Source: Shewanella acanthi (GTDB lineage: Bacteria; Pseudomonadota; Gammaproteobacteria; Enterobacterales; Shewanellaceae). From it: a stretch of DNA of 64,000 bases. Below, in pieces: positions 49,472 through 50,695 of the stretch. The DNA is taken from the NCBI RefSeq assembly GCF_019457475.1, contig NZ_CP080413.1, positions 1,798,001 to 1,862,000 of the forward strand, read 5' to 3'. The notes under the pieces are model-generated. The model saw only the letters and a program-made list of their open reading frames with translations, had not been told where the DNA came from and searched no databases. The first letter of the stretch is position 1; every line of letters begins with the position of its first letter. The translations under genes were made by a program, and so were the position numbers.

Positions 49472-49669
49472 ATGACGCTTAAGTGGATAGATTCCTTAGA
49501 TATTGCCCTAGAGCTGTTAGAAGAACACTCAGATGTGGATCCCCACAAGCTGCATTTTACCGAACTCTACGAATGGGTGTTGGCGTTGGAGGATTTTGAC
49601 GATGATCCTAAACACTGTAATGAGCGGATTTTAGAAGCGATTCAGCAATGCTGGATTGAAGAAAAATAA
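49472..49669 (+). CDS. iscX: IscX (YfhJ), Fe-S assembly regulator
   Basis: IscX is a small acidic protein that binds IscS and iron and tunes cluster assembly. The 65-residue protein has LKWIDSLDIALELLEEH at the N-terminus and the hallmark LEDFDDDP followed by ILEAIQQCWIEE. The start is ATG 49472 with AGGGG 6 bp upstream. In E. coli iscX directly follows fdx as the last isc gene; here it is 1.2 kb away, behind a terminator and rimK, so it is probably not part of the IscR-controlled transcript. Confidence 0.94.
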   Translation: MTLKWIDSLDIALELLEEHSDVDPHKLHFTELYEWVLALEDFDDDPKHCNERILEAIQQCWIEEK

Positions 49670-49711: not shown

Positions 49712-49727
49712 TGTGATAATCATCACA
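49712..49727 (+). promoter_or_regulatory. CRP-type binding site
   Basis: TGTGATAATCATCACA is a perfect TGTGA-N6-TCACA palindrome, centred 50 bp upstream of an FNR-type site and 145 bp from the start codon of the microprotein gene. Confidence 0.72.
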
Positions 49728-49762
49728 TTTTAACCCGCTTTCTTGGGGATTGATGTTGTTAG

Positions 49763-49776
49763 TTGATCCTTATCAA
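49763..49776 (+). promoter_or_regulatory. FNR/EtrA-type binding site
   Basis: TTGATCCTTATCAA fits the TTGAT-N4-ATCAA consensus exactly. A class II position (-41.5) would place the transcription start near 49811 with TTATTC/TATTCA as -10, giving a ~55-base leader. Confidence 0.72.
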
Positions 49777-49864
49777 TTCCCCCATACTCAATTCACGTAC
49801 CTTGTTATTCAGTCTTTAAGCATTTACGGGCTTAATGTTATTCACAGTATGCAAGGACGTTGCC

Positions 49865-50032
49865 ATGAAACTTTTGTTTGCGCTAATGAGTTGCTTATTA
49901 CCCTCACTCGTCTGGGCACATTCTGGACACGGCGGTGTGGGATTATTCCATCATTTGTTAGATTTTGCCCCAGCTATGGTTTTAGTGTTACTGGTTGTTT
50001 GGGTAGGGATTTGGGCCAAAAACAAAAAATAA
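49865..50032 (+). CDS. 55-residue His-rich membrane microprotein
   Basis: I do not recognise a named family. The 55-residue protein starts with a signal-like segment (KLLFALMSCLLPSLVWA, possible cleavage after Ala18). A short His/Gly stretch follows, HSGHGGVGLFHH, with His19, 22, 29 and 30. One membrane helix (about 36-50, PAMVLVLLVVWVGIWA) and a basic KNKK tail end it. AAGGA lies 7 bp before ATG 49865. The His cluster near the outer membrane face could bind a metal or haem. Upstream FNR- and CRP-type sites suggest induction under anaerobic conditions. A terminator follows, so it is a single-gene unit. Confidence 0.72.
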   Translation: MKLLFALMSCLLPSLVWAHSGHGGVGLFHHLLDFAPAMVLVLLVVWVGIWAKNKK

Positions 50033-50089
50033 ACCCAAGACATTCCACCTAGCGGTGTGCTCGCTCAAGGTGGATTAATCAAATTGATT

Positions 50090-50127
50090 GACCAGTACCG
50101 TAAAATACGCGGTACTGGTGATTTTTT
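50090..50127 (+). terminator. Terminator of the microprotein gene
   Basis: ACCAGTACCG/CGGTACTGGT 10-bp stem, 9-base loop, then GA and six T. Confidence 0.88.
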
Positions 50128-50216
50128 GCTAACTAAAACTGCTTATAAATCCAGCCAATGTGTGCAATATCGCAGACTAATTTGCAATAGAGATAGGATT
50201 TAGATTTTAAATTTCG

Positions 50217-50263: not shown

Positions 50264-50695
50264 ATGGCGATCGAACGCACATTTTCTATCATTAAGCCTG
50301 ATGCAGTTGCTAAAAACCACATCGGTGCAATCTACAACCGTTTTGAAACTGCTGGTCTGAAGATCGTTGCAGCTAAAATGTTACACCTGACTAAAGAACA
50401 AGCTGAAGGCTTCTACGCTGAGCACAGCGAGCGTGGTTTCTTTGGTGCATTAGTTGCATTCATGACTTCTGGCCCAATCATGGTTCAAGTATTAGAAGGC
50501 GAAAACGCTGTTTTAGCTCACCGCGAAATTTTAGGTGCGACTAACCCAGCTCAAGCTGCTCCTGGTACTATCCGTGCTGATTTCGCTGAAAGCATTGACG
50601 AAAACGCTGCTCACGGTTCTGACGCGTTAGAATCAGCTGCTCGCGAAATTGCTTACTTCTTCAGCGCTGAAGAACTGTGCCCACGTACTCGCTAA
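50264..50695 (+). CDS. ndk: Nucleoside diphosphate kinase
   Basis: Ndk balances nucleoside triphosphates by phosphotransfer through a phosphohistidine. The 143-residue protein has the catalytic His117 in [17 protein letters not shown], and [19 protein letters not shown] at the N-terminus. Length is that of the E. coli enzyme. Codon choice is strongly biased, as in highly expressed genes. It is monocistronic, with its own promoter and terminator. Confidence 0.98.

Follow-up and report, generated by a model that had tools for sequence, protein, structure and literature searches.

A 55-residue gene located between iscX and ndk in Shewanella acanthi encodes a microprotein that probably acts as a membrane-anchored, periplasmic nickel-capture protein feeding cytosolic nickel enzymes, and that would in this organism be co-regulated with the [NiFe] hydrogenase. 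The homologues of this gene change loci but track nickel enzymes. Since they are found beside the genes of three different nickel enzymes, i.e., [NiFe] hydrogenase, urease, and cytosolic Ni-SOD, the microprotein most likely helps nickel to enter the cell; these three enzymes share nickel and the insertion of the metal in the cytosol, and nothing else obvious.

Identification of the Microprotein Gene

The window, i.e., the whole stretch of 64 kb that was analyzed, harbors the gene at 49865..50032 on the + strand (ORF MKLLFALMSCLLPSLVWAHSGHGGVGLFHHLLDFAPAMVLVLLVVWVGIWAKNKK). The ORF is preceded by the ribosome-binding site AAGGA (49853..49857, +) and, as the initial annotation had noted, ends before its own intrinsic terminator (50091..50129, +), which consists of the segment 50091–50119 followed by a T run. 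The gene stands alone between iscX (49472..49669, +; Pfam Fe-S_assembly, E 1e-29) and a frame at 50264..50695 (+) that, judging from its sequence, we take to be ndk. Both neighbors lie outside the unit and were used as synteny markers, ndk being found again in homologous loci. A protein search of 60 genomes identified homologues in 26 genomes, all of them among the 36 genomes of the same genus, and the iscX–ndk slot was found to recur. In the mature part of the protein, dN was 0.13–0.16 (∼0.15), while dS ranged from ∼1 to saturation, giving a dN/dS of ∼0.1. Purifying selection on the gene is strong, and its presence in 26 of the 36 same-genus genomes, along with the low dN against a high dS, establishes it as a real gene, as had been proposed. 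An alternative ORF of 100 aa at 49750–50052 was without support and was rejected.

Predicted Features of the Microprotein

None of the Pfam and NCBIfam models matched the microprotein above cut-off. Residues 1–18 (49865..49918, +) are predicted to form a signal peptide with the cut at VWA/HSGH, and the residues flanking this putative cleavage site, A18 and H19, are invariant in the genus. The mature N-terminus would begin with a His loop (49919..49954, +) containing His19, His22, His29, and His30, the four histidines pointed out in the initial annotation, all of which are invariant in the genus. The loop is followed by a predicted membrane helix (residues 31–53; 49955..50023, +). The AlphaFold2 model, with a mean pLDDT of 81, showed a signal helix at residues 2–15, a loop, and a helix at residues 31–53, in agreement with the earlier description of a signal-like segment and one membrane helix. 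The microprotein is thus apparently an exported, single-helix protein. The residues invariant in the genus include A18, H19, G21, H22, G26, F28, H29, H30, and P36, and H19 and H22 are invariant across the wider family. The family shares a common plan, in which the predicted signal peptide ends just before a His, a second His follows three residues on (HxxH), a third His is nearly always present just before the single helix, and the tail is basic. A lipoprotein reading of the segment LMSC (residues 7–10) was rejected as the Cys is not conserved.

The search of solved structures revealed nothing convincing, the best match being lactate racemase, itself a nickel enzyme, with E = 0.5. A literature search for the corresponding gene of S. 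oneidensis MR-1 under the guessed locus tag SO_2273 retrieved no papers. The family of these microproteins is undescribed.

Predicted Promoter Architecture and Possible Link to Hydrogenase Control

Two perfect palindromes reported in the initial annotation were found upstream of the gene, with their centers 50 bp apart: a CRP site, TGTGATAATCATCACA (49712..49727, +), and an FNR/EtrA site, TTGATCCTTATCAA (49763..49776, +). Each is the sole perfect match to its motif in the window, against an expectation of 0.07 for CRP and 0.09 for FNR, and the joint chance of perfect sites for both within 100 bp is ∼2e-5 per window. A consensus scan revealed no ordinary sigma-70 promoter before the gene. A weak hexamer, TACCTT (TAnnnT; 49798..49803, +), is the predicted -10 element and would place the transcription start near 49810. 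Relative to this predicted start, the CRP site is centered at about -91.5 (∼-91) and the FNR site at about -41.5 (∼-41). This FNR position, combined with a suitably spaced -10 hexamer, is the arrangement of a class II promoter, seen here at the level of sequence.

This layout was found to be conserved among homologues in the iscX–ndk slot. Of 30 distinct upstream sequences, 29 retained the FNR site with 0–2 mismatches and also carried a CRP-like site (0–3 mismatches) centered exactly 50 bp 5′ of it. The mean CRP match over the 30 sequences was 7.6/10 at the 50-bp offset and ≤4.4 at other offsets, and the FNR site lies at a variable 92–116 bp from the ATG. In most of these loci, a TAnnnT hexamer is present 35–36 bases past the start of the FNR site, i.e., at the class II distance. 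Owing to the conservation of both sites and of their 50-bp spacing, along with the hexamer found in most loci, the class II placement of the FNR site suggested earlier is well supported as a prediction. Among four additional iscX–ndk loci that were read apart from the 30 sequences (L110, L113, L115, and L116), the FNR site was retained and the CRP site degraded in L110, L115, and L116, and both sites were lost in L113, as also in the iscX–ndk loci L024 and L086. From the promoter architecture, the gene appears to be turned on upon oxygen depletion. The E. coli ansB promoter carries CRP and FNR sites in the same order and with the same 50-bp spacing; the ansB gene is unrelated, and the architecture of the microprotein promoter is read from sequence only.

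The genome of S. acanthi has a [NiFe] hydrogenase ∼54 kb from the microprotein gene, and the promoter of the hydrogenase operon also carries a perfect FNR site (L130:18065–18078), as do the hydrogenase promoters of two further genomes (G002 and G005). The hyaABC mRNAs of S. oneidensis MR-1 dropped to 0.07–0.11 of the wild-type level when etrA was mutated, an effect regarded by the authors as indirect (PMC3078092). Anaerobic control fits a role in nickel supply, since the hydrogenase promoter has its own FNR site and hyaABC expression is low in the etrA mutant; the control of the microprotein gene would thus match that of its presumed client.

Genomic Settings of the Homologues

A blind scan yielded 56 genuine loci, of which 24 lie downstream of hypA, 27 in the iscX–ndk slot, and 3 beside ureD, the other two being one upstream of hypB and one orphan. 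A candidate in Solimonas (L093) proved to be a spurious frame in GC-rich DNA. Individual copies precede hypB (L075 and L114), neighbor ureD (L009, L052, L053, L055, and L104), or lie beside the structural genes of [NiFe] hydrogenase (L035 and L118). Genome G023 harbors one copy after hypF (L194) and another in a formate-hydrogenlyase-like region (L193). The names of representative neighboring genes were confirmed by Pfam; genome G427 was placed by coordinates only.

Built from members of the genus alone, profile A1 found the gene in no more than two distant genomes, where it lay beside nickel-enzyme genes, directly after the [NiFe] large subunit gene in one (L035) and directly before the Ni-SOD gene in the other (L036). 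These two matches are independent of the later widening of the profile. With the widened profile (A2), run over 395 genomes of the order, all the intact short matches examined outside the genus adjoined urease, Ni-SOD, or hydrogenase genes, with the exception of L158, which is without sodN yet retains the gene usually found upstream in Ni-SOD operons. In these operons (L119–L122, L131–L135, L142, L143, L145, and similar loci), a gene of ∼142 residues is often present directly 5′ of the microprotein gene; it shows a weak likeness to DUF2753, below the cut-off of that model.

In 12 genomes, the copy follows ureG, the position where hupE/ureJ can sit: the microprotein gene occupies it in L137 and other loci, and HupE/UreJ in L164 and L167. 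This placement would agree with the microprotein being a minimal nickel importer that replaces HupE/UreJ, with oligomerized helices forming the pore and the His loop its mouth, and several gene-bearing genomes (e.g., G016, G023, G031, and G034) had no match to HupE, NicO, or CbiM. However, conserved His or charged residues through which metal could pass are absent from the helix, the known metal importers have multiple helices, and importers other than HupE, NicO, and CbiM, such as NikABCDE and CorA, may be present. Such a minimal importer is considered unlikely, and capture of nickel for a separate importer is preferred.

Co-occurrence With Nickel Enzymes

The association was also examined in reverse, starting from the enzymes. 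The 395 genomes contained 35 clear sodN genes (a partial match in G676 is left out of this count), 30 of the cytosolic type and 5 of the exported type. The cytosolic type was recognized by the SAHCDIPC hook where it was read and was otherwise assigned by score; the exported type has a Sec signal peptide followed by HCQ[VI]PCGIYDD. The microprotein gene accompanied sodN in 30/30 of the cytosolic-type cases (26 as an adjacent profile match and 4 by frame reading) and in 0/5 of the exported-type cases, which points to the supply of the cytosol. Metal binding alone, as in periplasmic buffering of nickel against toxicity or for efflux, would equally yield a linkage to nickel enzymes. However, the gene tracks nickel consumers, no efflux genes were seen adjoining it, and it is absent with the exported-type Ni-SOD, which is a user of periplasmic nickel; hence, buffering rather than import is regarded as distinctly improbable.

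The same distribution bears on the initial annotation, which suggested that the protein could serve a respiratory complex as an accessory subunit or a metal/heme relay. Such a role would be in keeping with the FNR and CRP sites and the linkage to hydrogenase in Shewanella, but the relatives go with urease and cytosolic Ni-SOD, which are soluble and non-respiratory. As the same family accompanies urease, cytosolic Ni-SOD, and [NiFe] hydrogenase, the common factor is nickel and not respiration. The idea of a metal relay thus pointed in the right direction, while the heme relay, the respiratory complex, and the accessory subunit were not borne out, and such a part in a respiratory complex is highly unlikely.

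Among 56 Shewanella genomes, the gene and a [NiFe] hydrogenase were present together in 41, the gene alone in 2, the hydrogenase alone in 4, and neither in 9. The co-occurrence had p = 4e-6, uncorrected for ancestry; such p-values are optimistic because the genomes are related. In one of the two gene-only genomes, G008, the copy has lost most of its signal peptide, and in the other, G517, the copy precedes hypB. In the hydrogenase-only group, the hydrogenase of G001 is broken and a NicO permease gene lies next to hyp in that genome, G005 gave a strong match to CbiM, and G647 and G757 carry an intact hydrogenase with no microprotein homologue detected. The gene and a strong CbiM match were found together in G011, showing that the microprotein and CbiM are not strictly exclusive. 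The G008 copy (L195:7138–7272; also L091) is the sole wholly orphan copy; its genome lacks both [NiFe] hydrogenase and hypA, and the copy looks like a relic left by loss of the hydrogenase. Besides the microprotein gene and hypB, a Shewanella island (L075:8482–12326; also L114) contains a hypA-like gene and encodes an Fe-S/FAD oxidoreductase of 900 residues; in G517, where no [NiFe] hydrogenase was matched, this island may mark an unrecognized nickel enzyme or maturation target.

It is very improbable that the copies in the iscX–ndk slot, which adjoin iscX at a locus without a nickel gene, have a job other than that of their nickel-linked relatives, since identical residues are invariant in both groups, all the genomes with an iscX–ndk copy among the 36 same-genus genomes have a [NiFe] hydrogenase (13/13) and none of the 36 has a hypA-linked copy in addition, and the predicted FNR control matches that of the hydrogenase operon.

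Comparison With the Closest Known Proteins

The HupE/UreJ permeases (PF04955) resemble the microprotein in that several members have a signal peptide followed by an N-terminal AHxGH, and in their nickel-enzyme loci, including the position after ureG. However, they comprise ∼170 residues with several helices, as compared to ∼37 mature residues and one helix, and their motifs HPxxGxDH and FHGxAHGxE are absent from the microprotein, which gave no PF04955 match. The family profile matches the N-termini of HupE proteins; common descent is not claimed, as hardly more than the signal peptide and AHxGH is matched. The genome of S. acanthi also harbors three tandem HupE/UreJ-like genes (L196:3707–6151), one of which has a long N-terminal extension before the HupE/UreJ-2 domain, as in anglerases.

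The anglerases Ang-1 and Ang-2 are likewise proposed to capture metal through an N-terminal His at the outer face of the membrane (PMC12537917). The mature microprotein is predicted to start with His, given its signal peptide and the invariant A18–H19. The anglerases are folded domains of ∼180 residues fused to HupE/UreJ-2, whereas the 55-residue microprotein has a short loop, a single helix, and no permease domain.

DUF6732 (PF20506) proteins are similarly small, with a signal peptide, AHxGH, and one helix. They differ in having an acidic tail and in occurring in cobalamin loci, the microprotein family having a basic tail and nickel-enzyme loci. The DUF6732 score was 12.4 bits for the microprotein and ≤20.7 for six relatives, against a curated cut-off of 27. 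In six other proteobacterial genomes (L123–L128), the DUF6732 gene was located directly 5′ of a CbiX-like chelatase gene in all six, and in L128 a precorrin-8X methylmutase gene comes next, where read. DUF6732 is a possible cobalt counterpart of the microprotein family. The small subunit of cobalt uptake, CbtB, whose partner is CbtA, also combines small size, a single helix, and His residues with a link to metal uptake; neither the microprotein nor the six relatives matched CbtB in Pfam.

Proposed Role in Nickel Uptake

In the proposed mechanism, removal of the Sec signal after export would expose an N-terminal His, with its free amine and imidazole. This residue, His4, and one or two additional His just before the helix may jointly form a Ni(II) site facing outward at the inner membrane (putative His1 metal site, peptide HSGHGGVGLFHH). 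Other secreted proteins have proven metal sites of the N-terminal-His type, and a domain of this kind occurs in fusion with HupE/UreJ-2 permeases (PMC12537917). The bound nickel would be handed to an importer, presumably a partner permease transporting it inward; a single nickel permease accompanying the gene in all genomes was not found. The imported nickel would then serve the insertion machinery (HypA/HypB and UreE/UreG) and Ni-SOD. In the absence of oxygen, FNR/EtrA at about -41.5 would activate the gene, aided by CRP at about -91.5, and through this control the nickel supply would rise together with the synthesis of [NiFe] hydrogenase. More tentatively, the family could represent a dedicated nickel-import component of ∼37 mature residues, either a capture module or a minimal importer, that is interchangeable among hydrogenase, urease, and cytosolic Ni-SOD loci.

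A survey in 2009 listed 62 bacteria with nickel enzymes and without a recognizable nickel transporter (PMC2667541). If the proposed role is true, a nickel-import microprotein would form part of the missing uptake in such organisms. Tiny and easily missed, the gene can occupy the position of hupE/ureJ and accompanies three nickel enzymes unrelated to one another, which makes it a concrete candidate to fill part of this transporter gap. It would also provide a mark in sequence data, as neighbors of the microprotein gene may be suspected to be unrecognized nickel enzymes.
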